Assembly: GCA_903904835.1 (NCBI GenBank)
Contig: CAIVEI010000050.1
Location: 62,001-126,000, forward strand
DNA: 64,000 nucleotides
Reading direction: 5' to 3'
Source of the DNA: an uncultured Schlesneria sp.
Lineage (GTDB): Bacteria > Planctomycetota > Planctomycetia > Planctomycetales > Planctomycetaceae
In this document: piece after piece, positions 1,195 through 18,870 of the stretch
Layout: the number at the start of each line of letters is the position of its first letter
How positions within the stretch are numbered: the first letter of the stretch is position 1
Made by a program: the position numbers and the translations under genes
Notes under the pieces: generated by a model
What the model saw: the letters and a program-made list of their open reading frames with translations, nothing else
What the model was told of the DNA's origin: nothing
Databases searched by the model: none

Positions 1195-1213
1195 GAGTTG
1201 AAAGTAGATTTCG

Positions 1214-2340: not shown

Positions 2341-3462
2341 CTATTGTTCTGACGCACGCACGATGAGTTGCTGATCTTCGGTTTTCAGTTCGGCGATCCG
2401 TCTCTTCAGGTTGTCTTTCAAGTCTTCCACGTCCTGAACATCGCGCGCATAGTCCTGCATGCGGCGGTAGATCTTCTGATAGTACTCTTCATCGACTGGC
2501 TTGGCTTCTTGAAAAATCATCCCGTGCGTGTAACAGAAATCGAGAAATTCTTCGATGTTTCCCCCTTCAAAATTGCGGACTTTGTAGTCGCTGGGAGCTC
2601 GGCGGAATCGGTCGGCGGTTGCGCGAACTGATTCGACATATCGATTCGCCTCGTTTAATTCGCCGTGCAATCGCATTCTCTTACCCGCGTCGACGATGGC
2701 AGCGTTGCCTGGCATCGACCGTTTCTTTTGCAGGATTTTGGCCTGTAATAATTCAAGGTGATTGTCGAGCAACTCGGCACAGTCGAGGAATTTGTCTTCC
2801 GTCCTGCCGGAACTCAGCAATTCAACAAACGTATCCCTTGTTTTTTCAATGTTTCTGCGATCTTCCCCCCAATTCTGTTTCACGACTTCAGGCCATTCCA
2901 GCGTTAATGGCAATTGATTGAGCCGCACCACAACTTTCCCGCCACCCGATGTTGCCGGGTTCAATCGATAGTGCTCGACTTCTGCTTTTTCGATCCTTTC
3001 GGCTGGTGAAAGACTTTCAAAGCCGCCGTTTGCGTTAACACCGTTCGTTCGAATCCTTCGATAATGGGCGATAGGACCGAGTACCTTGAGTAAAATATTC
3101 AGACCGGTTCCTCGGAATACGGAACTGCGTAACGCTGGATTATTATTTTGGGCCATGTTGTTGAAGCCGATTTTGTCGAGTCGTCGTTCTTCGACAACCG
3201 CCCGACCCTGTATTCGATTGACCTCATCAGGCACATCTTCCCTGAGTTTTGCGAGTTCCGAGCCATACTGTTGCATCTCCGCGCGGATACGATTTCGCTC
3301 TTCTGAAATCCATTCCAAACGAACCCTTTTTGCCTCGGCCGATTCCTTTTCGACGATGATGATATCGCCGAACAAACCTCGATAGCGGGGTTGAGCCAAT
3401 CCAACCGTCGGTAGGACAATGCTCAAACTCAATGTGATGGCCAAAATCCAGCGAATGCCCAT
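2341..3462 (-). CDS. Exported coiled-coil protein of unknown function
   Basis: I do not recognise a named family. The 373-residue product starts with a clear signal peptide (hydrophobic core about 5-20, cleavage after GLAQ). The mature part is highly charged and alpha-helical, with likely coiled coils around 40-85 and 325-370 and a Gly/Asn-rich middle. No catalytic motif is visible. A good ribosome site (AGGAAC) lies before the ATG. It is the last gene of a tight minus-strand series: 23 bases separate it from the FHA-membrane protein, itself 76 bases from a receptor-like kinase. It may therefore be an extracytoplasmic partner or ligand of those proteins; this is inferred from gene order only. 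Confidence 0.8.
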   Translation of the reverse strand: MGIRWILAITLSLSIVLPTVGLAQPRYRGLFGDIIIVEKESAEAKRVRLEWISEERNRIRAEMQQYGSELAKLREDVPDEVNRIQGRAVVEERRLDKIGFNNMAQNNNPALRSSVFRGTGLNILLKVLGPIAHYRRIRTNGVNANGGFESLSPAERIEKAEVEHYRLNPATSGGGKVVVRLNQLPLTLEWPEVVKQNWGEDRRNIEKTRDTFVELLSSGRTEDKFLDCAELLDNHLELLQAKILQKKRSMPGNAAIVDAGKRMRLHGELNEANRYVESVRATADRFRRAPSDYKVRNFEGGNIEEFLDFCYTHGMIFQEAKPVDEEYYQKIYRRMQDYARDVQDVEDLKDNLKRRIAELKTEDQQLIVRASEQ

Positions 3463-3485: not shown

Positions 3486-4787
3486 TTATCGAGCGTCAAG
3501 TGCCCGTTCCAATGTTTCTGCCCATACGATCGAAGAATCGGACAACGTCATTCCGGATACTTTTTGACCGTCATCGAATATCAATCCACCGGCTTCGAGC
3601 CGTGGTTCAGCATCGCCTGGTTTGAGAAAGTGCTTTCCCGTTTCGAACAGGAATTGAGCCTTGCGATCCTTGATCTGGCATTCGTCGGTATCGTATTCGC
3701 AAAGCGGGAATGGGTGGTTTCCCTTAACACCTGGCGGGCGGGTCAGCTTTCCGTACGAAATATAAGTGAAGGTTTTCTTCAAATGCAGTTGGCGTTGAAT
3801 TTCTTTTGAGCCCACCAGCGAAATCTGTTTTCGAGCGGGCAGGGGCAGTCCCGTCGAATCTTTCAGCTTCAAAATCGATATCTCCGGGCAGACGTTTGAG
3901 AAACGGACCTCGACAACTTCGAAAGCCACTCCCTGTATGACGCAGCCCTGACGCGGACTTCCCGCGTTTCGTGATTCGTCGACAACCTCGTTAATCGCTT
4001 CGCCGATTTCGCGTGATGTAACCGCCGTTCGATCATCCCAAAGCCAGCCAACACCCAAGACATGAGGGCGGTCGTCGCTTTTCATATTCCCGATACCGAC
4101 CACAACGAGAAACTCCGCAGGCTCAAGTGCCTGAACGGTTGGTACAGGCAAATTCACATTGGCCTCGGGCTGAAGCATAACGGGCAAGGGCGGGTCGTTA
4201 TCAGCATGAGTATTTGGATTTGAAACGACAGCCTGTGATCGTGAAGTCCAAAACGCCCATCCCGCGCCAACAAGAATCAGAAACGAAATGGCACCGATAA
4301 CCGGCATCGCAAACGTTGCTTTTGGGGGTGGATTGTCAACGGCTTTTGTCGCCTTAAGACCAGGTTGTTTATCAGAGGCAGTCGGATTCGTTTTCGGTTT
4401 ATTTCCAGAAATATCGGGAATGAACGGGATATGCGGCGGCGATACGAATGCAGGTAGGGTCGCTTGCGCAGGTTTCGAAGGAACATTAGCAGACAATTCA
4501 TTCGAAGTAGGTTCAAACACGAGCTGTGGACCAGACTCGGTCAGATGAATCACGTCGCCCGGATTGAGCCAGGCAAACTGAGTCGGTCGGCCATTACCAA
4601 CCCGAATTGGCCCACCTTCTCGCGACTCAACAATCCACCGGCCGTTCACGTGGCGAATCACTGCGTGCAGCGGGGCCAGTCGAGCATCATTTGGAAGCGC
4701 AACTTGATTATCCGGATCTCGACCGATTCCGATTGCATCGGTCTCAAAACTGAGCGTTTGACGTTCCACAATGAGTTTAACGGGCAT
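3486..4787 (-). CDS. FHA domain, membrane segment and degenerate trypsin-like domain
   Basis: The start is placed at the ATG at 4787 because the FHA fold begins immediately (MPVKLIVERQ) and a longer reading would overlap the upstream kinase. The 433-residue protein has an N-terminal FHA-like domain (about 8-92; GIGRD, LHAVIRH, GNG). The usual Ser of the SRxH motif appears as Ala (LAPLHA), so phosphothreonine binding may be weakened. A Pro-rich linker leads to one transmembrane helix (about 160-180). The exported part resembles a trypsin/HtrA fold: GVGWLWDDRTAVTS aligns with the His-containing segment, EISILKL with the Asp strand, and EAGGLIFDDG with the GxSGGP loop. All three catalytic positions seem to be replaced, so I read it as a pseudoprotease. 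It lies between a receptor-like kinase and a secreted coiled-coil protein and may pass signals across the membrane. Confidence 0.85.
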   Translation of the reverse strand: MPVKLIVERQTLSFETDAIGIGRDPDNQVALPNDARLAPLHAVIRHVNGRWIVESREGGPIRVGNGRPTQFAWLNPGDVIHLTESGPQLVFEPTSNELSANVPSKPAQATLPAFVSPPHIPFIPDISGNKPKTNPTASDKQPGLKATKAVDNPPPKATFAMPVIGAISFLILVGAGWAFWTSRSQAVVSNPNTHADNDPPLPVMLQPEANVNLPVPTVQALEPAEFLVVVGIGNMKSDDRPHVLGVGWLWDDRTAVTSREIGEAINEVVDESRNAGSPRQGCVIQGVAFEVVEVRFSNVCPEISILKLKDSTGLPLPARKQISLVGSKEIQRQLHLKKTFTYISYGKLTRPPGVKGNHPFPLCEYDTDECQIKDRKAQFLFETGKHFLKPGDAEPRLEAGGLIFDDGQKVSGMTLSDSSIVWAETLERALDAR

Positions 4788-4863: not shown

Positions 4864-7287
4864 TTAACGTCGAAGGTTCGGATCACGCCCATCAACGCAG
4901 CCGCCGCAATCGATTCTGCCGAAACCGCCGCACTTTCCGCAAGCAACCATATTCGATGTTGGTACGGTCGACCCAACGACGACCCCAAAACCGACATCTC
5001 GTTTTTCGCTTGCGACACCTGTCTGCAAATGCTTGCCTCGGCCACCGCAAGTTTTGCAAATCAGCTTTGCACACCCGTTACAAAAGCTGCATGAAATATC
5101 TTCCAGACCACCTGTAGGACAAAACACGCGACATTCATCAATTGTCTTTTGAGATGGGTCGAGAGGCATAAACATCCAGCCTGTCTGAGGCCGGAAAACG
5201 GCTGGTTCCGTGTTCAAATTTGTGATCTTTTTAAGCTCATCCCCTTTGATTTCGAAGTTTTTGGTCAGGCTGAGCAATCGGCCAATGTTTTGATTGACTT
5301 CAAAGGGTCTCGGACTTGCCTTGGCGGCGATGCTGAAATAATTTCGGACGGGTGTGAATTTTCGTAATTTGATTTCAACCAGAGCCAGATTATTTGAGGC
5401 GGCCACATGTCCAGGTGATCGTTCAACAACTCGTCGGAAATGGTTCTCGGCATTCTCGATAATCTCTTTGGCGTCTTTTGGTTCTTTGGCACCAACCCCC
5501 AGATATAACAGCCCAAGATAAAAATCGGCGCGAACCTCTTTCGGCGCGAGATTGCTGGCTCGCTTCAGCGGCGTAATCGCTTGTTTCCGCTGCTTGGCCT
5601 GCACCAGAGAAATCCCTTTTGCAATCAGGTCATCAATACTCGCCGCCGGATCATCTTTGGAATTTGATTCGGAGGCGGCGACATCTTCATTGGACATTGC
5701 AGGGTCGTCCCCGACAGAGTTGGTCGGAGGTGCCGCTTCGTCGGCTTCGGCGAGTTCAGTGGCAGATGATGGATTCACCTCAACGCTTTCTGAATTCGAA
5801 TTTGATCCAGCGGCAACGGCATCTTTCGATTCTTGTGGCGATTCCGTTTTCCCCAAAGTCGACGTGATTTCTAAACTTGGCTTTTGAGGTAATTCTTCGC
5901 TACGCCCGTTCTCTGCTAAATTCTTTTCCGTGGGCAACGCGGCTAAAGCCGCAATCGATTCTTGACTCGGCTTAACCTCGGTTGTCTCCGCAGTGGCGCT
6001 GTTCTTTGATGGCGCTTTTTTTGTCGTGCCGGGAATAAATGCGATCGTAGCGAATGCCATTAACGCGACGGCTGAACTCCCGATCAGCGACCACCGACCG
6101 GCTGATGGTATGGCGCTCCAATGGTCTTGGATCGACGGTGAAACGGGAGCAACGGACTTTGGAACCGGCTTTTTGCTCTTCGCTGATTTTGCTGGTTTTT
6201 TAGAAACGGACAATCGAGCGGCGGGCAATTGAGCAGGAATCGGAGGGGGTTCGATACTCAAATTGAGATCGATTTCCGACGCATCGTCCGCGAATGAAAG
6301 ATCTTCGAACGGATGAGCATTCAGATTGATCGACTCTAAGGCCGTAACCGCTTCGGCACAGCTTGCAAAACGATCTTCTTTTCTTTTCGCAATCATTTTT
6401 TGGCAGACTGCGGCCAGGTTCGAAGAGAGATCTGGATTAATGTTTAATGGAGAAGGAGCGTCGAGGACGCATTTCTTTCCCATCACTTCAACGGCACCGC
6501 CTGTGAAGGGCCATTCACCGGTTAACATTTCGAACAACATCACGCCAACAGCATAAAGATCACTGCGTTGATCAATATCCTCGGCTTTTCCCGTCGCTTG
6601 CTCGGGAGACATATAGGCAGCAGTACCGACAACCATTCCCTGCGTCAGCCCCGCGTCAGATGACCCGATTGCACGGCGAGCCAAGCCAAAATCCATGATG
6701 ACAGGCTCGTTCTTTTTGTTCAGCATCACGTTCTCGGGCTTTAAATCCCGATGAATCACGTCCTTATCATGAGCGGCTTCTAAAGCTCGAAGTATCTGCA
6801 CGACAAGCCGAACCGCTTCCGTTGGTTCACGCCGACGCCCCAGCCGGGTCAAATACTTCTTAAGGTCTTCACCTTCGACGTATTGTAAAGCGATGAAGCG
6901 GATCCCATCGATTTCACCTGCGTCATAAACCTTGCAAATCTGAGGATGGTCCACCTTCGCTGCCGATTTGGCTTCGATTTCCATCCGCTTCAGCAGTTTT
7001 GCCGAACCGGATGCCGAAACGCGAGCCACCTTCAGCGCCACAGGCCGATCAAGTTCGGTATCGTGAGCCAGATAGACCGCTCCCATTTGCCCACGGCCCA
7101 GTTCCCGCTCAACCCGATACCGCCCGAATATCTTTGGTATCAGAGAGCCAGACACAGCCATCATCGGGACCGAGTCCGCTGCACGATTTGTGTCACTGGA
7201 TTTCGAAACGGGCTGAGTCGTCGGTTTGGCGACTTTTGAAGCGTCTGCTGCGGAAATTTCTGATTGGCGTTTTGGTGATTCGGCCAT
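4864..7287 (-). CDS. Transmembrane Ser/Thr kinase with TPR region and C-terminal Cys-rich domain
   Basis: This 807-residue protein has a full kinase domain (about 56-318): GRGQMGAVYLA, VALKVA, HRDLKPEN, DFGLA and SPEQ. An Ala/Pro/Lys linker leads to one transmembrane helix (about 399-419). A long acidic Ser/Glu-rich stretch and TPR-like helices (about 560-700) follow. The last 89 residues hold 11 cysteines, several in CxxC pairs (CSFC, CKTC, CGKC, CGGC) with Gly-rich spacing like a DnaJ zinc centre. If topology is standard this Cys-rich module is outside the cytoplasm, which is unusual. The start MAESPKR matches the conserved start of three neighbouring paralogues and is preceded by GAGAGGCGG. 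The FHA-pseudoprotease gene follows after 76 bases. The ligand is unknown; redox or metal sensing is speculation. Confidence 0.93.
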   Translation of the reverse strand: MAESPKRQSEISAADASKVAKPTTQPVSKSSDTNRAADSVPMMAVSGSLIPKIFGRYRVERELGRGQMGAVYLAHDTELDRPVALKVARVSASGSAKLLKRMEIEAKSAAKVDHPQICKVYDAGEIDGIRFIALQYVEGEDLKKYLTRLGRRREPTEAVRLVVQILRALEAAHDKDVIHRDLKPENVMLNKKNEPVIMDFGLARRAIGSSDAGLTQGMVVGTAAYMSPEQATGKAEDIDQRSDLYAVGVMLFEMLTGEWPFTGGAVEVMGKKCVLDAPSPLNINPDLSSNLAAVCQKMIAKRKEDRFASCAEAVTALESINLNAHPFEDLSFADDASEIDLNLSIEPPPIPAQLPAARLSVSKKPAKSAKSKKPVPKSVAPVSPSIQDHWSAIPSAGRWSLIGSSAVALMAFATIAFIPGTTKKAPSKNSATAETTEVKPSQESIAALAALPTEKNLAENGRSEELPQKPSLEITSTLGKTESPQESKDAVAAGSNSNSESVEVNPSSATELAEADEAAPPTNSVGDDPAMSNEDVAASESNSKDDPAASIDDLIAKGISLVQAKQRKQAITPLKRASNLAPKEVRADFYLGLLYLGVGAKEPKDAKEIIENAENHFRRVVERSPGHVAASNNLALVEIKLRKFTPVRNYFSIAAKASPRPFEVNQNIGRLLSLTKNFEIKGDELKKITNLNTEPAVFRPQTGWMFMPLDPSQKTIDECRVFCPTGGLEDISCSFCNGCAKLICKTCGGRGKHLQTGVASEKRDVGFGVVVGSTVPTSNMVACGKCGGFGRIDCGGCVDGRDPNLRR

Positions 7288-7485
7288 GCTACCGCCTCTC
7301 TAGATTCCGATTCTTACGAGTTTCTTAGAAACCCTGATCGCATTAAATTTCTGCAATCGGACAAAAGAAATTGCAGTGAAAAAGCATTTTAAATCGATTA
7401 CTGGCGTTTCAGTGCACAAATTCTGGTCGAATTATACACAGTTCGATTTCTGTTTGTCACGTATGGAATCCGTCGGAAATCCCTC

Positions 7486-9867
7486 TTATTTCTTACTCAC
7501 GGAACGTGCGATCCTGAAGCCTGTAATATCCGTCTTGGAACGGCGATTGAATCCGGAACGATGAGCCGACCTGGCTTGTTGCGGATCGCTGAACCAGGAA
7601 CCGCCTCGAACGACTCGACTGTCCCAATTGCTCGTATAGATCGGGTTTTCGGTTGTTCCCGAACGCGAGGCATACGTGGACCACTCGTAACTATCTTCGC
7701 ACCACTCCGAAACGTTTCCGTGCATGTCGAACAAGCCAAAGGCGTTCTTTGGATAGGAACCGACCTTCGTTGTTCGTTGAAGTTGTGGACCTGGCTTGGC
7801 ACCGCCGTACGGAAATCGTCCGTCCACGTTGGCCTGCTCGCCATTTAAAGTATTTCCAAATTCGAACGTCGTTATCGAACCGGCACGACAGGCATATTCC
7901 CATTCCGCCTCCGTCGGCAGTCGATATCCGGTGCCACCGGAAATCGTCACGGTTGCAGAATCAATGACGCCATTTTTTCGTATGATGTCTGACCATTGGT
8001 AATAGGCAGGGCGACCTTCACTTTCACTGAGCCTGTTACAAAACTCAATCGCCTGATACCAAGATACGCGTTCTACCGGGAGACGACTGGTATCCAGGTC
8101 AACGACCTTGCTTTTGCCACCTCCATCCGTCGAAAAGAAGCTTGGAATCCAACCCGTGATCTTCTGGTACTCCCCCTGCGTGACTTCATAGACCCCGAGA
8201 TAAAACGGTTGTGTGATACGAACGCGATGTCGCGGGCATTCATCGCCACTGTGTCCGACTTCTGAACCAGGTGCTCCCATCTCGAATTCACCTGCAAGAA
8301 TCAAGGCCATCTCCATCCCAGTCGACTTGGAAACGATACGCGGCAAATATCCGATTCGAGGTGACTCGTCCGACGATTTCCTTTTCGAAGAATGATCCGT
8401 GACAACGACCTCCTGGTCATCAACCAGCGAGACCTTTATTCGCCGCCTCTCACCAGCGGTGAGCTTCAGTTCTGTCGTTGCCAATTCCACAGGAATGCCA
8501 TTCTGAAAGACTTCCAGCAGGTTATTGGTCGACGTCGAGACTTTGATCGGGTGACTGTCGTTTTCCTCGGTGATCGAAGCCCCTCTGAATCGGACTGAAA
8601 GAGTCGGATTGTCGATCATGATTTGGACAATACCGCTCGGTGACAACAACCACCACAAGAATGCAGGAAGGGCAACGAGAAATATTGTCGTACCTGCGAT
8701 CAGCCACCGAAACGAAACCGGAGTATCTCGAAACCATTTTGCGAAGCGTGCGGTTGGACCATCACGACGGATTTCCAGATGCTTTTTCTTTTTGGCGTTT
8801 GCACGATTTTCGGCAACAGACGCCAATGAAAGCGACGCAAGCTCGATTGCTGCAAATGGGCTCGGTTGGGGTTTCTCTTTCACCTCAGAAGTCGCGGATG
8901 ACTGAAGCGAACGGGTCGGGTCCATTGCTTCCAGTGCCTCGACGACCTCGGCACATGTGATGAACCGGTCACCTTTTTGTTTGGCAATCATCTTGTGACA
9001 GACTGCGGCCAATTGAGGATTCAATGCAGGATTGAGAGTCAGCGGCGATGGAGGTTCTTGAACAACCTTCTTTCCCATCACTTCAATTGTACCCCCTGTG
9101 AACGGCCATTCGCCTGTCAGCATCTCAAATAGAATCACTCCCACCGCATAAATGTCGCTGCGGTGATCGATCCCCTCCGCTTTACCGGTCGCTTGTTCGG
9201 GTGACATATACGCCGCAGTCCCGACGATCATTCCCTGAGTCAGTCCTGCATCTGACGAAGCAATCGTCTTGCGAGCCAGTCCGAAATCCATGATCACCGG
9301 CTGGTTCTTCTTATTCAGCATGATGTTTTCAGGCTTTAGATCCCGATGGATTACGCCCTGATCATGGGCTGCTTCCAATGCACGAAGGATCTGCACGACC
9401 AGTCGAACAGCCTCTTCGGGTTCACGCTTCCGTCCCTTACGCTTCAGGTACTGTTTCAGGTTTTCTCCTTCAATGTATTGAAGGGCGATAAAGCGGATGC
9501 CATCAATCTCACCCGCATCGTAGACCTTACAGATCTGTGGATGGTCAACTTTCGCCGCTGACTTGGCTTCAATCTCCATCCGCTTCAGCAGTTTCGCCGA
9601 ACCCGATGCAGAAACCCGCGCCACCTTCAGCGCAACAAGTCGGTCCAATTCGACATCGTAAGCCAGGTAGACAGCCCCCATTTGCCCCCGGCCAAGCTCT
9701 TTCCGAATCTCGTACCGACCGAACTGAGTCGGCAATGTCGCAAAGGGTCCGACAGGAACCGGTTCTGAATCCGATGCACGGGCAGTCTCGCCCAGCGGAG
9801 AATCTGCTGGGCGAACAGGCTTACCCGTTTGTGAACGATCCGCATTTCGTTTTGGTCGATCGGTCAT
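7486..9867 (-). CDS. Transmembrane Ser/Thr kinase with SUMF1-like (FGE-sulfatase fold) domain
   Basis: The 793-residue protein has a complete kinase domain (about 50-312; GRGQMGAVYLA, HRDLKPEN, DFGLA, SPEQ) and a transmembrane helix (about 386-408). A small beta-rich segment (about 410-490) resembles a PEGA-type repeat. A SUMF1/formylglycine-generating-enzyme fold (about 515-790) has the usual landmarks YEVTQGEY, YRLPTEAEWEYACRAG, GLFDMHGNVSEWCED, VVRGGSW and GFRIA. The two copper-binding cysteines that follow RGGS in true FGE enzymes are absent (RGGSWFSDPQQ), so sulfatase activation is unlikely; the fold probably binds a ligand outside the cytoplasm. The kinase half is nearly identical to that of the 14913-17618 paralogue, pointing to duplication. 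Kinase-SUMF1 fusions are known from planctomycetes and myxobacteria. Confidence 0.95.
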   Translation of the reverse strand: MTDRPKRNADRSQTGKPVRPADSPLGETARASDSEPVPVGPFATLPTQFGRYEIRKELGRGQMGAVYLAYDVELDRLVALKVARVSASGSAKLLKRMEIEAKSAAKVDHPQICKVYDAGEIDGIRFIALQYIEGENLKQYLKRKGRKREPEEAVRLVVQILRALEAAHDQGVIHRDLKPENIMLNKKNQPVIMDFGLARKTIASSDAGLTQGMIVGTAAYMSPEQATGKAEGIDHRSDIYAVGVILFEMLTGEWPFTGGTIEVMGKKVVQEPPSPLTLNPALNPQLAAVCHKMIAKQKGDRFITCAEVVEALEAMDPTRSLQSSATSEVKEKPQPSPFAAIELASLSLASVAENRANAKKKKHLEIRRDGPTARFAKWFRDTPVSFRWLIAGTTIFLVALPAFLWWLLSPSGIVQIMIDNPTLSVRFRGASITEENDSHPIKVSTSTNNLLEVFQNGIPVELATTELKLTAGERRRIKVSLVDDQEVVVTDHSSKRKSSDESPRIGYLPRIVSKSTGMEMALILAGEFEMGAPGSEVGHSGDECPRHRVRITQPFYLGVYEVTQGEYQKITGWIPSFFSTDGGGKSKVVDLDTSRLPVERVSWYQAIEFCNRLSESEGRPAYYQWSDIIRKNGVIDSATVTISGGTGYRLPTEAEWEYACRAGSITTFEFGNTLNGEQANVDGRFPYGGAKPGPQLQRTTKVGSYPKNAFGLFDMHGNVSEWCEDSYEWSTYASRSGTTENPIYTSNWDSRVVRGGSWFSDPQQARSAHRSGFNRRSKTDITGFRIARSVSKK

Positions 9868-9927
9868 TATGAAAATATCTGATGTGAACTTTGATAAGCA
9901 GTCTACTCAACACTGTGACAAATCAAG

Positions 9928-12900
9928 CTAGGGCAAAGACGGTAACCCATCCCAAAGAGCTTTTCCGTCCGGCGACGTCACTTTGATATTTTTGAATCGC
10001 CATGATGAAAGGATACACCGGAGTCCGACGCGACCGACCGGATGTCGATCGTCCGTGAAGCTTGAGACTCGCGTCTCGAACTCCCCCTGTTTAACAAAAC
10101 AATCAAAGTGATTTCCACGTACGCTGACTCGAAGCGTGTACCATTTTTTTTGTTCGATTTGGAACTTCCAATCTGGTCCAGCAGGCCAATATTTCCCCCG
10201 AACCTGGACTTCTGGAGATATTTCCGTCGGGGTGGCCATCATAAGGTAAAATCCTCGACCGCTCACTCCGCGAAACGCGAGCGCCACTTGCTCATTCCCC
10301 TCGACCCGCATGGCATCAACGCTGAAGTCGTAATCTCGCCAGTTCGTGTCACCCAACCACAAATGGCTGAACTGGGTTTGTGTGTCGGTTTGGAAAAGCT
10401 CGTTACCAGCCACTCGCCAGTTGCCATTCCCGACAGCGAATTGTTTCCGGTTAACTTCGTCTACCGATTTCCCTGTCGGCGATGACGGCTTTTCCCCGGT
10501 CGAATCGACCGGCGATTTATGCTCAACATCGCCATCTGCAATCTCCTTCAGTTGCTCCCCCGTTATCGGCGTAAGCTTTAAGGTCCGAATAAGAAACTCA
10601 GAAACCCCTCCTCCAATCCAAAGCTGCTCGCGATCGGTCTTAGAGTAATTCAGCGGCTGATAAACGGGATTCAAAGACAGCCGCCTTGGATCACCGTGCC
10701 AGCGGATGACTTCGTCTTCACCACACTTGACGACGATCGTATCGGACAGCACGAAGCATCGAACTTGAACCCGTTGTCCCGGAGGTAACAATTGGCCTGA
10801 ACGACTTCTCCGAGTGAAGTTCAGGCGGTCATGAAGCGGCTTTTCATCGACATACTCGATTCCCGAATCCCAGCCATCGTCATCAAGTGTCGCAACGGTC
10901 GCGTGGCCACCAACGATCAAACCAAGGCGGAGATGGCTTGTTCCTCTTCGACGCTCGATATCAGCAGTCAGTACGTACTGTGCAGGTGGGATGACGGGAA
11001 TCCGTAGACGGTTTGCCGCAAAGACCGGACTAACAAGTCCCTCAGCGTTTTTCGTCCATTGTCCTTTCCGCGAGTCACGTTGAGGGTCAATGATCGAGAT
11101 CAAGTTTCCGTCACTCCCGACCGCTGTCGGCGTCGGAAACGACGACGGTTCAAGAGGCTCAATCTCCATTTTTTCAAACCGAAATCGGCTGGAAAAGCTG
11201 CCGATCGTGATTTGCCCATCCGGGGAACTCCATTGTGGAGTATGCCAGTGTCGACTTGGGTTTCCAGACCAGTCGACAATGGTCTTGTCTCCAACTGTCA
11301 CTTTTAAACCTGTTTTGCGGACAAACGCGACAATTTCTGTGGATGGCCCTTGTGGGATCGCCTGAATACGACGCATCGTTGGATTCTGGTTGGAATTGGG
11401 TTGTTGACCATCCAGATGAATGCCACTGACGGTCGATGCCCATCCATCAATCAGTACCTCAGCCATGGAGTTTTCAACGGGGAGATTAAGAACCAGGCCA
11501 TCGCTTGTTTTCCCGCCTGGCTCACGCGCGACCGTCATTTTGAATTTGTATTCTGCGGGAACTTCGCACGGGACCACGAGCTCGGAATCGTAACGATCCC
11601 CTGCCACGCGAAGAATCGAGCTTTCTTTCGTCCATGTCCCTTGCAATGCGTCACGTGTGGGATCAATCAACGACAACAGGTCGACCGAACGACCGATCGC
11701 GTACGAGGGATGTTCGGGAAGAGTGAGACGATCAACGGGCGGACCAAGTTTAATATCGCTCAGGATGAGATGGGTTCGTGTATGAAACGACAATTTACGA
11801 GCATCTGCGGGAACCAATGCTGGATGAGGGGAAAGCCGACAAAAGTCCCCCTTCCAATGGACCAACGTACGATTACCAACTTCCATTCGTATGGCTTGCT
11901 TTGTAACGGTCAAGACAAGTTGAACCGGCTCCCCCTTTTTGAAAAATGATCCCGCGAGACGGGTTTCATTTGCGTTAAATCGGACGCCGTCAATCTGCTC
12001 AAGACCCAGATAATCATTATTCTTCAATTCGATCTCGCAACTCGACGTTCCCGCGATCAGTCCGACAACGAGTGAATGCTCTCCCTCTGCCCCCTCAGCG
12101 ATCTCGACCGTCGCCGACAGTGAGTATTCTTGCGGGACTTCGACCGGCAGAGCGAACATCGATTGGCCGGAAGCGGGACTGTGCAGTCTCCCTTTGCTGA
12201 GCCCCCAGAACCCGCTGATGCTGTCCCGATCGGTGTCCAGGAAAGGTGTCACGTCGATCTCTGAGTTAAGCTTCGACGGACGCGACCTGACGGAATCAGG
12301 TTTGAGGGGAATCAGCACTGCCGAATCGATCTGAAATTTTGACTGGCCAACCCGGAAAAAGGGTGTCTCGCGATTCGGCGCTTCGTAGTTTGAGTTCGTC
12401 CAAAGTCGATTTGCTTCACCGTGCCAGTCGACGACCGTCTGGCCGTCAACGGCCGCATGAAAATGGCCAGGATGAACCGTAATCGCGATCTCGGACAATT
12501 GGTCGTTCTTAAAGAGCACTTTATCACGAGTCGTGCAATTTTCGCGTGGATCTTTGCCATCGACAAACAGTCCGCTGAACTTTTGATAGTTATCGAATCC
12601 GACAACTCCCTGGCGCCCGTCCATGACAAATCCGATCGCGATTCCGCCGCTTTCTGCGATTCGCTTCAGGCGGAATTTCAATTGATAGTCAGCCGGAACG
12701 GGAGTTGGAAAATAGACAATCCCGTTACTACCACCGGTCAGGGAAGTCCCCTGTTTTTTCCATTCACCAGCGAACGAGTCACGAGATAAATCAACTTTTT
12801 GAATCAGGTCGACGGGGGGTCCAACTGGATTGACAACAAGTTTCTCGTCGACAAGCAGTCGCAGTTTCGTATTTGAACCAGTTCCTGCGTAGAACGTGCT

Positions 12901-14187
12901 GCCTGGACCGAACCACCCGGATGGCAAAAAGGCGAACATGCAAATCAGGGACAACAAAAACGCGACGCCAACGCCGCATCCGATCCACACCGGTCGCGAG
13001 AGATTTGTGATCCAAGACTTTGTGAGACTCGTCAAATATCCCTTCGCCGCCGATTTCGACAGTTCTTCTTTCGATGCGGCAGATTTCAACCGCTTGTTTG
13101 TTTCAGGGGAATCCGTTGATTCGATCGGAATATTAATCAACGGATTCGGATCAGACGGCGGAACCTGAGGGGGAACTTGTAATTCGACGGAGTTCGTATC
13201 AGAAGCGAGGCGTTCGAGTTCCGTGATGATCTCGACACACGTGACATACCGGTCCCCTTTTTGTTTGGCAATCATCTTGTGACAGACAGCGGCTAGCTGC
13301 GAATTCAACTTTGGGTTGATCGAGAGGGGCGACGGAGGTTCCTGAACGCACTTTTTTCCGATCACTTCGATCGCACCGCCGGTGAATGGCCATTCGCCGG
13401 TGAGCATCTCAAACAGCATCACACCAACGGCATACAAGTCGCTGCGGTGATCGATCCCTTCCGCTTTGCCGGCCGCCTGTTCCGGCGACATATACGCTGC
13501 GGTGCCGACAATCATTCCCTGGGTCAAGCCAGCATTCGACGACGCGATTGTCGTTCGAGCCAACCCAAAGTCCATGATGACAGGCTCGTTATTCTTATTC
13601 AGCATGACGTTTTCGGGCTTCAAATCCCGATGGATGACTCCCTGATCGTGAGCCGCTTCTAGTGCATGAAGCATCTGCAGAACCAGTCGAACGGCCTCTT
13701 CCGGCTCACGCTTTCGCCCCTCGCGCTTCAAGTACTGCTTAAGGTTTTCCCCTTCGACATATTGCAAAGCGATAAAGCGAATCCCGTCGATTTCTCCCGT
13801 ATCATAAACCTTGCAGATTTGCGGATGGTCGACCTTTGCCGCCGACCTGGCCTCGATCTCCATTCGTTTCAGAAGTTTCGCCGAACCTGATGCGGATGTC
13901 CGCGCCACCTTGAGCGCAACGCGTCGATCCAATTCCGTGTCGAGTGCCAGGTAAACGGCACCCATTTGCCCGCGGCCAAGTTCTTTTTGAACTTCATACC
14001 TGCCAAACCGCATCGGCAGCGTCGCGAACGGACCAACGGGTATGGGAACCGAATCGGCAGCGCGAGCCGTTTCACCTGACGGGGAACCTGCAGGACGAAT
14101 TGGCTTTCCGATTCGTGAAGTGTCTGTTTGTGACCGAGCCGCATCGGGTTGGGAATGATCCGTTCGGCGTTTTGGTGATTCGGTCAT
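9928..14187 (-). CDS. Giant transmembrane Ser/Thr kinase with five LamG/DUF1080-like modules
   Basis: I place the start at ATG 14187 (MTESPKRR) because this motif opens its three paralogues; an in-frame ATG lies 24 bases upstream. Numbered from that upstream ATG, the kinase spans about 70-332 (HRD at 194-196, DFG at 214-216) and a transmembrane helix lies at about 408-430. The remaining 950 or so residues hold four similar beta-rich modules. Three of them open with a recurring pattern such as DPTRDALQGTW or DPQRDSRKGQW and three contain a WHG- or WSG-type motif. A fifth domain at the C-terminus resembles the DUF1080/3-keto-disaccharide hydrolase concanavalin-like fold (NWRDYDFSV, FKNIKV, GKALWDG). 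Such folds usually bind carbohydrate, so an exported polysaccharide is a plausible signal; that is inference. No glycosidase active site is evident in the four tandem modules. Confidence 0.92.
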   Translation of the reverse strand: MTESPKRRTDHSQPDAARSQTDTSRIGKPIRPAGSPSGETARAADSVPIPVGPFATLPMRFGRYEVQKELGRGQMGAVYLALDTELDRRVALKVARTSASGSAKLLKRMEIEARSAAKVDHPQICKVYDTGEIDGIRFIALQYVEGENLKQYLKREGRKREPEEAVRLVLQMLHALEAAHDQGVIHRDLKPENVMLNKNNEPVIMDFGLARTTIASSNAGLTQGMIVGTAAYMSPEQAAGKAEGIDHRSDLYAVGVMLFEMLTGEWPFTGGAIEVIGKKCVQEPPSPLSINPKLNSQLAAVCHKMIAKQKGDRYVTCVEIITELERLASDTNSVELQVPPQVPPSDPNPLINIPIESTDSPETNKRLKSAASKEELSKSAAKGYLTSLTKSWITNLSRPVWIGCGVGVAFLLSLICMFAFLPSGWFGPGSTFYAGTGSNTKLRLLVDEKLVVNPVGPPVDLIQKVDLSRDSFAGEWKKQGTSLTGGSNGIVYFPTPVPADYQLKFRLKRIAESGGIAIGFVMDGRQGVVGFDNYQKFSGLFVDGKDPRENCTTRDKVLFKNDQLSEIAITVHPGHFHAAVDGQTVVDWHGEANRLWTNSNYEAPNRETPFFRVGQSKFQIDSAVLIPLKPDSVRSRPSKLNSEIDVTPFLDTDRDSISGFWGLSKGRLHSPASGQSMFALPVEVPQEYSLSATVEIAEGAEGEHSLVVGLIAGTSSCEIELKNNDYLGLEQIDGVRFNANETRLAGSFFKKGEPVQLVLTVTKQAIRMEVGNRTLVHWKGDFCRLSPHPALVPADARKLSFHTRTHLILSDIKLGPPVDRLTLPEHPSYAIGRSVDLLSLIDPTRDALQGTWTKESSILRVAGDRYDSELVVPCEVPAEYKFKMTVAREPGGKTSDGLVLNLPVENSMAEVLIDGWASTVSGIHLDGQQPNSNQNPTMRRIQAIPQGPSTEIVAFVRKTGLKVTVGDKTIVDWSGNPSRHWHTPQWSSPDGQITIGSFSSRFRFEKMEIEPLEPSSFPTPTAVGSDGNLISIIDPQRDSRKGQWTKNAEGLVSPVFAANRLRIPVIPPAQYVLTADIERRRGTSHLRLGLIVGGHATVATLDDDGWDSGIEYVDEKPLHDRLNFTRRSRSGQLLPPGQRVQVRCFVLSDTIVVKCGEDEVIRWHGDPRRLSLNPVYQPLNYSKTDREQLWIGGGVSEFLIRTLKLTPITGEQLKEIADGDVEHKSPVDSTGEKPSSPTGKSVDEVNRKQFAVGNGNWRVAGNELFQTDTQTQFSHLWLGDTNWRDYDFSVDAMRVEGNEQVALAFRGVSGRGFYLMMATPTEISPEVQVRGKYWPAGPDWKFQIEQKKWYTLRVSVRGNHFDCFVKQGEFETRVSSFTDDRHPVGRVGLRCILSSWRFKNIKVTSPDGKALWDGLPSLP

Positions 14188-14237
14188 AAGTTGCTGTTCC
14201 ACAATCACCATGAAAGAAATGCTGAACGATTGTGTCG

Positions 14238-14798
14238 CTATTCGAACAACCGGGCAACGATGACGTCAAACCCAGGAAGCAAATCTGGAAATGTCAGATG
14301 ATCGTCGGCATTCAAGACGGTCAGTTCATGGTCCGCCGAGAAGAGATGTACTCTTTGAGAAACCGGATCGACGACCCCAATAGTCAGGACATTCTCGCTT
14401 AAGTATTCTGCGACCGTCTGCAAGATGTCTTTCCATCGGTCGTTCTTGGAACGGATTTCGATGACCAGTTCGGGACTCGCAGGCCAATACCCGTCGGGAA
14501 CCGGCCCGCGAGGCATTCTCTGATAGCTGTAATACGCCAGACCAGGGACACGTACAGTGTCTGGATCACGGTGAGTCACCAAACCAGCATCACCGCCGAC
14601 GACTCTGCCGAGCCCATGCTGCTCTACAAATTGCCCGAGCATCATCGACAAGCGGACAAGGAAATAGCCGTGCGACGTGAACGGCCAGTTCGTTTCGACA
14701 ATCCTTCCACTGACGAGCTCGGTCAACCGACCATCATCCGGTAAGTGCGCATATTCTTCTGCCGTCAGCAACTGCGGTTCCAAAACGGTCGTCGTCAT
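14238..14798 (-). CDS. Uma2-family (DUF820, PD-(D/E)XK fold) protein, active site altered
   Basis: The 186-residue sequence has the Uma2 layout: LTAEEYAHLPDDGRLTELVSGRI near the N-terminus, then a strand with VRVPGLAYY, then ELVIEIRSKND and a C-terminal VVDPVSQRVHLF strand. In active members the first motif reads R-x-P-D; here the aspartate is glycine (VRVPG). The Glu of the second motif (VIEI) is kept. Catalysis is therefore doubtful. Uma2 proteins are abundant in cyanobacteria and planctomycetes and their role is largely unknown. A strong ribosome site (GAGGAG) precedes the ATG. The gene sits alone between two paralogous kinases on the same strand and is probably a later insertion into the array. 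Confidence 0.88.
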   Translation of the reverse strand: MTTTVLEPQLLTAEEYAHLPDDGRLTELVSGRIVETNWPFTSHGYFLVRLSMMLGQFVEQHGLGRVVGGDAGLVTHRDPDTVRVPGLAYYSYQRMPRGPVPDGYWPASPELVIEIRSKNDRWKDILQTVAEYLSENVLTIGVVDPVSQRVHLFSADHELTVLNADDHLTFPDLLPGFDVIVARLFE

Positions 14799-14912
14799 CC
14801 GCGTCTCCTCGGAATCCTGATCTTGCGTCGAGCCGGTCCCGACGCGCCGGGACTTGTACCAAAAGAACAGAAATTCGCAGTAACTAAAGATTATTCTAAG
14901 GGTACAAACAAA

Positions 14913-17618
14913 TCATTGTCGCGTACCAGTCACGATGTGTGTTCTTCCACCCGGATCATTCCATTCAGCCCGAAACGTTGTCAGATCTTCGTTGAAAATA
15001 AACGGAATACCCGTTGCACTGTCGTTCTGAGACCGGTCGAAATGAACCCGCATCTCCCGCGTGCCAACCACCCAGTACTTCCAGTTCCAGTTACTGAAGG
15101 TTCCGTTGTCGCGGAACTCCTCGGGGCCACCGGGTGGATAAAGATTGTCACTGTAGTACCATTTATTTGTTAGTAATAGATTTCTCAAACGCGCGATTTG
15201 AGTCTCAAGATTTGGTTCGGAAGCTAATTTGACTTGTTGTATTTCCGGTTCCCTTTTGAGTATCTGCACAGCGGCAACGCGGAATCCGACGTCGTCGTTC
15301 CGAAAGTCGGACGCTGCCCAGTGGCGGCTCGCGGAACGACTGTCCCACGCGCTGTAATTCCAGCCGCCACCCCGAAATACTCGACCCGGACCTTGAACAG
15401 GCCCTGAGGGGTCAATCCCACCTGGAAGCTGTTTTCCATACCAATCCTCACACCACTCCCATACGTTTCCGTGCATGTCCTTTAATCCCCATGCGTTCGG
15501 CTTCTTTGTCCCAACTTTTTGAGCATATTTTTCCGCCTTTGCGTAACCATCGGCCCAGATGTAATCATTCATGAGCGCCTCATCATCGCCAAAACAATAC
15601 TTTGTCGTCGTTCCGGCCCGGCATGCATATTCCCACTGGGCCTCCGTCGGTAGAGTGTATTTCCAATCAGTCGGCAATCGGCCAGCCTTTCGTTCTTGCT
15701 CGGTTAATCTGCGACAAAACTCAGAGGCACTCTCAGTATCCGGTTCCCCATCACGTTGACTGATATAGCTTGCCGCGAAGTCGTCTCCTTCTTTGACTCG
15801 GTCCTTTCCCTTCCATGGCGATGTCTGCATGACCGATTTCCATTCTCCTTGAGTCACTTCGGTCTCACCCAACCAGAAACCCGAGCTCAGGACCACGGTC
15901 ACTTGATCTTCGTCGGGATCACGACCTGTCTCATTGAATTGACTCCCCATACTGAAACGCCCGGCTGGGCACCAGTGGAACTTGATTCCAGGGACTAACT
16001 CACGTACCTCCCCCGCCGAATCGCCACCGAATTGAAGAGTTGCCGGTGACGAACCTCGCTTCTGGTCTTCTGACTGATTCGCAATGACAGGCTGACCATC
16101 AATCACTACTTCGCCATCGAGAAGAGTGACTTTGACGACCCGGGTGTCCCCCTTTTTTAAGTCCAGCTCTTTCGTGAAGGATTCAATACTTGTCCCGTTC
16201 TTATAGAGAACCTCCAGCGTGCGGTTTTTCGTCGCGCTGATTTTGATTGGTTGATTGTCGTTATCCACAGTGATTGTCGATCCGTCGAACTTGACCGACA
16301 GATTGGGATCGTCAATTTCAATCTTCAGAACACCGTACTTTGTCGGTAAAAACAGTATCGCGGCGAAGGCGAGCAGGCTGGCTGTCGCGCCGCCAAGGAT
16401 GGTCCAGCGCACCAACGGCAATTGCTCATTCCAACGCTTCGATAACGGCCCCAGAGCAGCGAATGACGATGGTTGATGAAGACTCTTCTTGTTTCCCTCA
16501 CTTACATTCTTCTTCCCGAATTTTGCAGGGGATTTACGAATTACAGATGCTGTTGCGATGGACGGTTCCTTCGTGAAATTCGGCGCTGCTTCAGAAACAC
16601 GGTCAACAGGTTCAGCCACAACAACTGACGAGACGGGCTTAACCACTGCTTTCAAGTCGATCGCTTCCAAGGCAGTAACGACCTCGGCGCACGTGACGTA
16701 CCGATCTCCTTTTTGTTTCGCGATCATTTTATGGCAGACGGCTACCAACTGTGGGTTCAAATTCAGATTGAGAGTCAGCGGTGTTGGGGGTTCTTGAACA
16801 ACCTTCTTTCCCATGACTTCGATCGCACCGCCTGTAAACGGCCATTCGCCAGTGAGCATCTCGAACAACATGACACCAACCGCGTAAAGATCGCTCCTGT
16901 GATCGATCACTTCGGCTTTACCGGTGGCTTGTTCGGGAGACATATAGGCTGCTGTCCCGACGATCATTCCCTGCGTCAGGCCTGCATCGGATGACGCGAT
17001 CGTCTTTCGAGCCAAACCGAAATCCATGATCACCGGCTGGCCCTTCTTGTTGAGCATGATGTTTTCGGGCTTCAGATCCCGATGGATCACACCCTGCTCA
17101 TGTGCGGCCTCCAGTGCGCGAAGAATCTGAACGGCCAAACGAACCGCCTCTTCGGGTTCACGTTTGCGTCCCTTACGCTTTAAGTACTGTTTGAGGTCTT
17201 CCCCTTCGATGTATTGCAAAGCGATGAAGCGAATGCCATCGATCTCACCTGCGTCGTAAACTTTGCAGATCTGTGGATGGTCTACCTTTGCTGCCGATTT
17301 GGCTTCGATCTCCATCCGCTTGAGTAGCTTTGCTGAACCCGATGCTGATGTCCGAGCCACCTTCAGCGCCACAAGTCGATCCAGTTCGACATCGTAGGCC
17401 AAATAAACAGCACCCATTTGGCCCCGGCCAAGTTCTTTTCGAATCTCATACCGGCCGAACTTCATCGGCAATGTCGCAAACGGACCACCGGGCGAGGGGA
17501 CCGAATCGGCCGCTCGCCCGGTTTCACCTGACGGTGAACTTGCGGGACGAATTGGCTTGCCAATTCGTGAAGTCTCTGCGGGAGCGACATTTTTTGGTGG
17601 TTTCGATGAATCGGCCAT
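14913..17618 (-). CDS. Transmembrane Ser/Thr kinase with SUMF1-like domain and C-terminal beta module
   Basis: The start is set at ATG 17618 (MADSSKPP) to match the paralogues; an in-frame ATG lies 15 bases upstream. The kinase domain (about 55-320) carries GRGQMGAVYLA, VALKVA, HRDLKPEN, DFGLA and SPEQ. It differs from the kinase encoded at 7486-9867 at only a handful of positions. After one transmembrane helix comes a small PEGA-like segment, then a SUMF1-like fold (GRFSMGS, GETEVTQGEW, LPTEAQWEYACRAG, GLKDMHGNVWEWCED, FRGGGW, GFRVA). The FGE cysteines are missing (RGGGWNYSAWD). About 105 extra residues at the end form a Trp-rich beta module (NKWYYSD, NWNWKYWVV) absent from the sister kinase. 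It is a probable sensor kinase with an extracytoplasmic binding head; its signal is unknown. Confidence 0.94.
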   Translation of the reverse strand: MADSSKPPKNVAPAETSRIGKPIRPASSPSGETGRAADSVPSPGGPFATLPMKFGRYEIRKELGRGQMGAVYLAYDVELDRLVALKVARTSASGSAKLLKRMEIEAKSAAKVDHPQICKVYDAGEIDGIRFIALQYIEGEDLKQYLKRKGRKREPEEAVRLAVQILRALEAAHEQGVIHRDLKPENIMLNKKGQPVIMDFGLARKTIASSDAGLTQGMIVGTAAYMSPEQATGKAEVIDHRSDLYAVGVMLFEMLTGEWPFTGGAIEVMGKKVVQEPPTPLTLNLNLNPQLVAVCHKMIAKQKGDRYVTCAEVVTALEAIDLKAVVKPVSSVVVAEPVDRVSEAAPNFTKEPSIATASVIRKSPAKFGKKNVSEGNKKSLHQPSSFAALGPLSKRWNEQLPLVRWTILGGATASLLAFAAILFLPTKYGVLKIEIDDPNLSVKFDGSTITVDNDNQPIKISATKNRTLEVLYKNGTSIESFTKELDLKKGDTRVVKVTLLDGEVVIDGQPVIANQSEDQKRGSSPATLQFGGDSAGEVRELVPGIKFHWCPAGRFSMGSQFNETGRDPDEDQVTVVLSSGFWLGETEVTQGEWKSVMQTSPWKGKDRVKEGDDFAASYISQRDGEPDTESASEFCRRLTEQERKAGRLPTDWKYTLPTEAQWEYACRAGTTTKYCFGDDEALMNDYIWADGYAKAEKYAQKVGTKKPNAWGLKDMHGNVWEWCEDWYGKQLPGGIDPSGPVQGPGRVFRGGGWNYSAWDSRSASRHWAASDFRNDDVGFRVAAVQILKREPEIQQVKLASEPNLETQIARLRNLLLTNKWYYSDNLYPPGGPEEFRDNGTFSNWNWKYWVVGTREMRVHFDRSQNDSATGIPFIFNEDLTTFRAEWNDPGGRTHIVTGTRQ

Positions 17619-18276
17619 TTGTCGCGTACCCATTTCATGCCCAACAGAGGCGGTTTAACGATTGGAATCAGAAATACCGTCCTTCGATTTCCATCCGAAA
17701 GCTCTCTGAACTTATATCGAGCAAATTTCGCGTTGGCCAACATTTACCAGCAAAACAGGCTGTTTCTTACAAACAACGGAAAAGCTGTTTGCGGATTTCC
17801 GTTGATGATCTCGATTAACTCACGTCATCGAGCGAATCGGATTGGACGACAAAGGTAAATGCGGAAGGGTGCCGACTTCCCGACAAAGAAAATTCCCGCT
17901 GACCGAAGAATGACTGCCTTCAAATACCGAAACGAACGAGGCAAATTGCGCGTGCCTGCAACAACAGAAGAAAACCCGACGAAACGTTAGCCCGACGCGC
18001 AAGCAAGGGATCTTCTCTTCGTTTCCATGGAGATAAGATCCCTCCCTTGCGCGTGATCAAAGTTCCTGAAAAATACCATCCTCATGCGCACGTTCCAGAC
18101 GTTAAGAAAGCCGCGAAGTGAAGATTTTGGAAACTTGGCTCGTTGGGAAAACCCCTGATTTCCACCCAACGCTTTCATCAGTTATTCCGTCAAATGGACC
18201 ACGCTCGTATGAGATTGTATATTCGTTGTCGCGACGGTGACTCTTTTTATGTGCTATTTTTCGCCAGGACGGTGAG
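17619..18276. other. Divergent intergenic region between sensor kinase and ECF sigma factor
   Basis: About 660 bases without a convincing gene separate the divergently transcribed kinase and sigma factor. It contains one copy of inverted-repeat family B (17985-18054). The last 100 bases before the sigma gene are AT-richer (TTTTTATGTGCTATTTTTCG) and probably hold its promoter, but no clear -35/-10 pair can be named. Small open frames here show no codon bias or motif. Confidence 0.6.
17985..18054. repeat. Inverted-repeat element, family B, copy 1
   Basis: The element begins GTTAGCCCGACGCGCAAG. Its arms at 17995-18014 and 18035-18054 pair over 18 of 20 positions around a 20-base loop. A second copy lies at 54458-54530 and shares the leader TTAGCCCGACGCGCAAGC. 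In this copy the outermost GTTAGCCCG part has lost its partner on the right side, so it looks partly eroded. Confidence 0.85.
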
Positions 18277-18870
18277 ATGAACCAACCTCAATTGCCGCTT
18301 GACGATGCATCTGGCTCCATCACCATTCTTTACCAGCAATGGCGTCAGGGTGATTCCGATTCATTGAATCAATTGATATCGCGATTCTGGCCGCGACTTC
18401 TCGCGCTCGCACATTCGACTCTGCGTGGCCGCGTTCAGCGTGTGGCCGACGCCGAGGATGCACTCCAAAGTGCCATGATCAGTTTCTGGGGTCGAGTCGA
18501 TAATGGCGGGTTCGAGCATGAGATGGACCGCGAGGATTTGTGGAACGTCCTCGGACTATTCACGGTCCGAAAGGCGATCAAGCTGCAGGAACGTGAACGA
18601 GCGAAAAAGCGGGGGGGCGGCAAAGTTGTCACCGGAGTTCCCTTGGAAAATACGGCTCAGATCGGATCGGAAGCGGGGCTGGATCTGGTCTGTGCAGAAT
18701 TGCTGGAAATGCTCGATCCCGATTTACGAGCCTTTGCTCTTCTTCGGCTGATGGGTCATAAAAACCGTGAGATTGCCGATCAGTTTCAATGTACCGAACG
18801 AAAGGTCGAGCGAAAGTTGCAGTTAGTTCGCGCCGTTTGGGAACAGGAAGTCAAACTTTGGGAATCGTAA
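18277..18870 (+). CDS. ECF-type RNA polymerase sigma factor
   Basis: The 197-residue protein has the two-domain layout of an ECF sigma factor. Region 2 (about 25-95) shows the typical ADAEDALQSAMISFW helix that contacts core polymerase and the -10 element. A short basic linker (KKRGGG) and a helix-turn-helix region 4 (about 140-195; GHKNREIADQFQCTERKVERKLQLVR) for -35 recognition follow. No anti-sigma factor gene adjoins it. Instead a kinase with an FHA domain follows on the same strand, and receptor-like kinases lie upstream, an arrangement described for planctomycete sigma factors linked to Ser/Thr kinases. Control by phosphorylation is therefore plausible. Confidence 0.92.
   Translation: MNQPQLPLDDASGSITILYQQWRQGDSDSLNQLISRFWPRLLALAHSTLRGRVQRVADAEDALQSAMISFWGRVDNGGFEHEMDREDLWNVLGLFTVRKAIKLQERERAKKRGGGKVVTGVPLENTAQIGSEAGLDLVCAELLEMLDPDLRAFALLRLMGHKNREIADQFQCTERKVERKLQLVRAVWEQEVKLWES

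Follow-up and report, generated by a model that had tools for sequence, protein, structure and literature searches.

In the window, i.e., the whole stretch of 64,000 nt that was analyzed, four receptor-type Ser/Thr kinases, K1 to K4, are encoded on the minus strand between positions 4864 and 17633. K4 (14913..17633, 906 aa; Pfam Pkinase and FGE-sulfatase) consists of a kinase domain (~16698-17450), a membrane-proximal beta domain (~16074-16343), a SUMF1 module (~15264-15998), and a C-terminal Trp-rich module (~14913-15224), the latter predicted as a small beta barrel. A gene of the Uma2 family (14238..14798, minus strand; PF05685, E 1.4e-22) lies inside the array between K4 and K3. K3 (9928..14211, 1427 aa) combines a kinase domain (~13246-13998) with four repeats of ~190 aa (~10507-12801) and an unlike LamG/3-keto-disaccharide-hydrolase-like module (~9931-10506). 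K2 (7486..9867, 793 aa) carries a kinase domain (~8947-9714), a putative membrane helix, a beta domain, and a SUMF1 module (~7504-8313), whereas K1 (4864..7287, 807 aa) joins its kinase domain (~6364-7119) to a TPR plus Cys-rich, zinc-ribbon-like sensor half (~4867-5577). On the same strand, 76 bp after K1, follows the gene of a protein with an FHA domain (E 2.2e-05), a membrane helix, and a degenerate trypsin-like part (3486..4787), hereafter FHA-pseudotrypsin protein, and then a gene (2341..3462, minus strand) for an uncharacterised 373-aa protein, for which the family search gave zero matches and which is a conserved partner of the FHA gene by synteny in G001, G005, G006, G010, and G015. 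The intergenic gaps from K4 to the 373-aa gene amount to 23-198 bp, which suggests that these genes may form a single transcription unit. Divergent from the array are the gene of an ECF sigma factor (18277..18870, plus strand; Sigma70_ECF, E 1.3e-20) and, adjoining it with conserved synteny, that of an FHA-Ser/Thr kinase without a recognised sensor (19389..21002, plus strand; Pfam FHA and Pkinase). The array is flanked on both sides by more kinase or FHA-kinase genes (window 1-2332 and 19389-21002).

The first-pass annotation had described four minus-strand kinases with a near-constant half up to about residue 320, and this holds for all of them: the Pkinase domain is whole in K1 to K4 (Pfam, E 1e-47 to 1e-49), the segment GRGQMGAVYLA is unchanged in four of four, near identity extends as far as residue ~320, and the catalytic motifs VALK, HRDLKPEN, DFG, and SPEQ are intact throughout, which completes the Hanks-type set. 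The kinase domains are 82-94% identical to one another, and the kinase halves 74-89% at the amino acid and 70-80% at the nucleotide level. The genome of the window yields about 70 Pkinase matches, and since the nearest other kinases among the 73 genome matches are only ~40% identical to K1 to K4, the four represent a distinct family. K3 and K4 scored 306 and 300 bits against the PknB-type PASTA kinase model (NF033483), which has a cut-off of 450, and PASTA repeats gave no match in K1 to K4. By inspection of the sequence, a hydrophobic stretch is found at residues ~390-440 in all four kinases, so that a single membrane helix would separate the kinase from the accessory domains. The latter belong to known periplasmic types, namely SUMF1 (K2 and K4), LamG/3-keto-disaccharide-hydrolase (K3), and TPR-like (K1, below the Pfam cut-off). 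In the K4 orthologue of G005 (L071:4309-6051), HRDLKPET and AFG replace HRDLKPEN and DFG, because of which this protein looks like a pseudokinase.

When DNA identity is plotted along the genes, it drops in most pairs from 0.69-0.86 within the kinase to ~0.3-0.45 past it, as expected from the earlier description of near identity on one side and no similarity on the other. The second part of this description fails for K2 and K4, because this pair can be aligned through to the end of SUMF1 (53% identity overall, 41% in the SUMF1 modules, and 94% in the kinase domains). The membrane-proximal beta domain of both proteins matched no Pfam family above cut-off. In an active formylglycine-generating enzyme, the active-site Cys pair sits C-terminally. 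In the alignments, no Cys follows the motif NVSEWCED or NVWEWCED within the SUMF1 modules of K2 and K4; without a Cys at the usual catalytic place, these modules probably serve binding and not catalysis. Instead of five LamG-like modules, K3 possesses four homologous repeats (22-28% identical), which match the repeats of the family member G010_h, and one different C-terminal module, which is 48% identical to the sole sensor module of G010_e. For the Trp-rich tail of K4, the predicted structure comprises a helix and a small beta barrel (pLDDT 79.5), and of the five models one clearly surpassed the others. Foldseek found no match for this fold at E<=0.001, and the best Z in VIA-align was 9.0, mostly against designed small beta barrels, so that no fold family could be assigned.

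In order to place the array among its relatives, 15 genomes of the genus, including that of the window itself, and then 170 genomes of the family were searched, whereby most comparison genomes are MAGs. Within the genus, 7 of these 15 genomes, among them that of the window, contain high-similarity members of the kinase family, as does G015 from one other genus, and the 170 family genomes add only relatives of 57-59% (G066, G157, and G163). The single-contig genome G003 has no member of the family. The modules found among the 25 family members are SUMF1, C-lectin, WD40, LRR, TPR, LamG-like, and PA14-like, and their order varies widely. The K4 orthologues in G001, G005, and G002 consist of the kinase and the Trp-rich tail but have no SUMF1, the tail standing directly behind the membrane-proximal part; in the K4-like gene of G002, a TAG codon breaks the tail. 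The same tail is located behind two 3-keto-disaccharide-hydrolase modules in G015_b, and it was not found in other proteins among 119 genomes. Thus, a SUMF1 module is present or absent in frame between conserved flanking modules, the direction of this change in K4, gain or loss, being judged from three SUMF1-less relatives. In the SUMF1 tree, the modules of K2 and K4 fall into different supported clades, and the nearest relatives of the K4 module (55-61%) are mostly non-kinase proteins. In G006, the sensor half of K1 stands behind a J-like, non-kinase N-terminus in a protein whose gene adjoins paralogues of the FHA and 373-aa genes and Hsp70-like ORFs; elsewhere, homologues of this sensor half are secreted TPR-trypsin-zinc proteins (L103: Pfam trypsin and TPR). 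It is conceivable that old duplicates simply diverged in their outer halves by point mutations and indels with no exchange of modules. Such a course would fit the age of the duplication (see below) and the K1 and K2 sensors, which are kept between the window and G001 at 85-88% (K2 orthologue 88%). However, the separate SUMF1 clades, the in-frame presence or absence of SUMF1, the K1 sensor on a non-kinase protein, and the unrelated folds borne by sister kinases all speak against it, and we regard it as improbable. The recombination of sensors that had been proposed from the window is supported by these observations and by the absence of K3 from the array of G001.

The age of the copies does not agree with the recent duplication that the first-pass annotation had suggested. 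Calculated after Nei-Gojobori (NG86), dS among the kinase halves of K1 to K4 is 1.3-2.9, values which are near saturation (pS 0.61-0.74), in comparison to 0.34-0.73 for single-copy neighbours that are syntenic in the window and in the sister genome G001; synonymous differences between copies are 2-4 times those between sister-species orthologues. At four-fold sites, 0.54-0.60 of the positions differ among K1 to K4, where 0.72 is expected at saturation (simulation with two independent synonymous draws under local codon usage) and 51-80% differ between unrelated kinases within the window. Any two of the four copies share identical runs of at most 17-32 bp, while K1 and K2 reach 65-83 bp between species. 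In the kinase tree, K1 clusters with the K1 genes of G001 and G005 (support 100/99), and monophyly of K1 to K4 was rejected by a tree test; the order within the K2/K4 group is unsettled in the kinase protein tree (AU for K2+K4 p 0.42). Because of these dS values, the run lengths, the K1 clade, and the rejected monophyly, the duplications predate the species split. Over the kinase halves, dN/dS is ~0.03-0.09; the identity of these halves at the protein level thus reflects purifying selection. A recent duplication or a recent gene conversion could have homogenised the kinase halves while the sensors recombined, and near-identical kinase proteins as well as a conversion-like tract in a relative would be compatible with this. 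Still, neither the high dS and the short common runs nor the sliding pS comparison of the kinase halves, in which no low-pS window appeared, leave more than a very small probability for it.

Traces of gene conversion were sought by a scan in which the synonymous differences of each gene pair were tested for a deviant segment; control genes gave z 2.9-4.3. Between K4 of G001 and its counterpart in G002, residues 83-140 show a synonymous difference of 0.76 compared to 0.30 elsewhere (z 6.25, P<=5e-5). This tract of the G001 kinase half, ~58 codons or ~170 bp in length, is nearest to G005_c (84.5% nt), whereas the remainder is nearest to K4 of G005 and G002 (87-88%), which makes the kinase half a mosaic. 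For K2, the SUMF1 module (7504-8313) differs at synonymous sites by only 0.08 from that of G001 (L070:14712-17129), while the rest of the gene reaches 0.36 (z 7.94, P<=5e-5). The low divergence suggests a late transfer of the module, but it may also be that the SUMF1 DNA itself is under constraint. In K4 of the window, the first 60 codons are orthologue-like (pS 0.27-0.30), with pS of ~0.5-0.7 downstream. Taken together, the mosaic tract and the K2 and K4 patterns indicate that conversion-like events have occurred, which were old and local; within the kinase half, such recombination appears to have proceeded piecemeal. Of the gene conversion suggested previously, a recent form among the four copies has to be given up in view of the short runs, while an older form is seen in the relative.

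In G001, the gene order is SpeB, ligase-like, FHA-kinase, ECF sigma factor, K4', K2, K1, FHA-pseudotrypsin, 373-aa, and kinase 372. The locus is syntenic throughout to that of the window but without K3 and the Uma2 gene, and K4' is only 576 aa in length. In G005, one contig bears K4' and, behind it, Uma2 (89% identity); K1, whose orthologues are found in G001 and G005, lies on another contig with the FHA gene behind it. G002 possesses the ECF/FHA-kinase/SpeB side without the array and has its K4-like gene elsewhere, and G010 harbors eight family members across five contigs. The arrays differ in every genome, and no identical array turned up in distant planctomycetes. An assembly chimera of the metagenome bin, which comes to mind as the comparison genomes, and perhaps that of the window, are mostly binned assemblies, is extremely improbable, since G001 independently shows this gene order between orthologous flanks and parts of it recur in G005, in G002, and in G015, whose genome is a single contig. 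To call the array a locus for generating new receptor specificities, as had been done, goes too far, because family members also lie dispersed, as in G010, and a dedicated mechanism was not found.

A programmed diversity generator acting on the sensors, be it a diversity-generating retroelement or a site-specific system, has a next to negligible probability. In its favor, retroelements commonly target SUMF1/C-lectin folds, a Treponema variable protein is the best relative of the K4 SUMF1 module with a solved structure, and a real retroelement aimed at a SUMF1 protein exists elsewhere in the same genome. Against it, the template of this retroelement matches neither K2, K3, and K4 nor the window (43% at best at non-A positions), the array contains no A-biased repeat and no template copy that differs from the sensor 3' ends at adenines only, and K2 is best conserved between species in its 3' part (dS 0.20). 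The retroelement in question (L158, own genome G000:C121, 303-3430) comprises a SUMF1-fold variable protein with a variable repeat at 1335-1493, a template at 2002-2160 with 20/20 mismatches at template adenines, and a reverse transcriptase ORF at 2360-3430. As a cause of the array variation it was rejected, since the template does not target the kinases of the window.

An ECF factor, an FHA-kinase, and/or an FHA-trypsin gene accompany the kinase family in G001, G005 (two loci), G010, and G015. ECF and FHA-kinase genes diverge from the array in the window, in G001, and at both G005 loci; in G010, they adjoin an FHA gene, a 373-aa gene, and one family kinase, and in G015 the ECF factor lies beside the three family kinases of this genome. 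In G006, the ECF/FHA core occurs without an adjoining family kinase, and several family kinases (G002, G010, and G006) are distant from any ECF gene. Across eight loci, the SGSIT sequence near the N-terminus of the ECF factor is invariant, and the acidic DxxD motif (DAED) of region 2.2 is kept in 8/8 orthologues. An alignment of the ECF upstream regions from the eight loci had little in common beyond the closest four genomes and revealed no conserved promoter. The FHA-pseudotrypsin protein (gene 3486-4787) belongs with the FHA-TM-trypsin family (hhalign probability 100, E 7e-41), other members of which match Trypsin_2, while the trypsin-like part of the window member has no Pfam match; its AlphaFold model reached pLDDT 30. 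It is only a suggestion that K1 and the FHA-pseudotrypsin protein might be split halves of one TPR-trypsin-zinc protein, as a profile comparison of the outer domain with the secreted TPR-trypsin-zinc proteins gave no significant similarity (P 0.15). In several planctomycetes, genes of FHA-membrane-trypsin proteins adjoin Hsp70 (DnaK)-like and J-domain-like genes (L084:502-5644, L140, L142, and L151). The combination of a receptor kinase, a phosphothreonine-binding FHA protein, and an ECF factor suggests a putative signaling chain, whereby signaling from the kinases to the ECF factor is judged from gene neighbourhood.

Overall, we consider it likely that K1 to K4 belong to an old family of single-pass receptor kinases with one conserved intracellular output and with sensors that have been reshuffled over the time in which species diverge. 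The kinase half, which would be cytoplasmic and is strongly constrained by purifying selection, would feed one common intracellular output, and the outer half would be a string of exchangeable binding modules for putative ligands, which are replaced, lengthened, or shortened via recombination and whole-module insertion or loss at the pace of species divergence. Most likely, the kinases undergo autophosphorylation and also phosphorylate the FHA proteins encoded nearby (FHA-membrane-pseudotrypsin and FHA-kinase), and the ECF sigma factor may be controlled through the FHA proteins or directly by the kinases. The array consists of old copies and would reflect a slow natural re-wiring of receptors rather than an active diversity machine. 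A further-reaching and rather doubtful idea is that the ECF sigma/FHA core keeps the variable kinase array as a sensor slot, in which homologous recombination in the constant kinase half, in the N-terminal 60 codons, and in the conserved tail re-attaches one regulon to new signals; if this were true, the choice of sensor would evolve far faster than the pathway. Planctomycetes possess scores of receptor-type kinases, whose inputs and outputs are almost all unknown. Sister receptors that have a conserved catalytic half in common but different sensors, orthologues set apart by a single whole module, and a sigma factor as a constant neighbour constitute natural chimeras, which make it testable if a swap of the outer half re-routes the input to the same regulon.

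Compared to known systems, the array shares with the variable proteins of diversity-generating retroelements the SUMF1 fold as a variable binding module, but those proteins are point-mutated, whereas the array sensors are swapped as whole modules without a template repeat. Bacterial histidine kinases are characterized by domain shuffling and lineage-specific expansion. As in the array, their transmitter half is conserved and the sensor half is replaced after duplication; the array differs in that it comprises Hanks-type Ser/Thr kinases with several modules per receptor and FHA adaptors. In the ECF43 systems PknS-EcfK and PknT-EcfP, a Hanks-type membrane kinase activates the ECF factor encoded alongside, and the ECF43 signature is the loss of the acidic DxxD of region 2.2 together with a conserved Thr (PMC13147305). 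A kinase gene adjoins the ECF gene in the window, too. However, the window ECF factor retains DxxD, because of which it lacks the ECF43 signature and a switch of this kind is not expected, and the single kinase of the ECF43 systems stands against several kinases and FHA proteins in the window, with a putative regulation of the ECF factor. The transmembrane Ser/Thr kinases of planctomycetes have an N-terminal cytoplasmic kinase, one helix, and periplasmic WD40, TPR, SUMF1, or DUF1080 domains, and the survey also noted lineage-specific expansion, with like architectures apparently arising repeatedly (PMC11032199). K1 to K4 have the N-terminal kinase and modules of the periplasmic types as well, and would likewise be joined by one helix. 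Thus, the class of planctomycete membrane kinases with varied sensors is already known, and the array is not categorically new. A syntenic array, dated copies, or an exchange of sensors at orthologous positions are not described in the sections of the survey considered here (PMC11032199), and relative to these sections our analysis adds one case with dated copies and synteny: at a locus marked by a conserved sigma factor, receptors that are orthologous differ from each other by individual modules.
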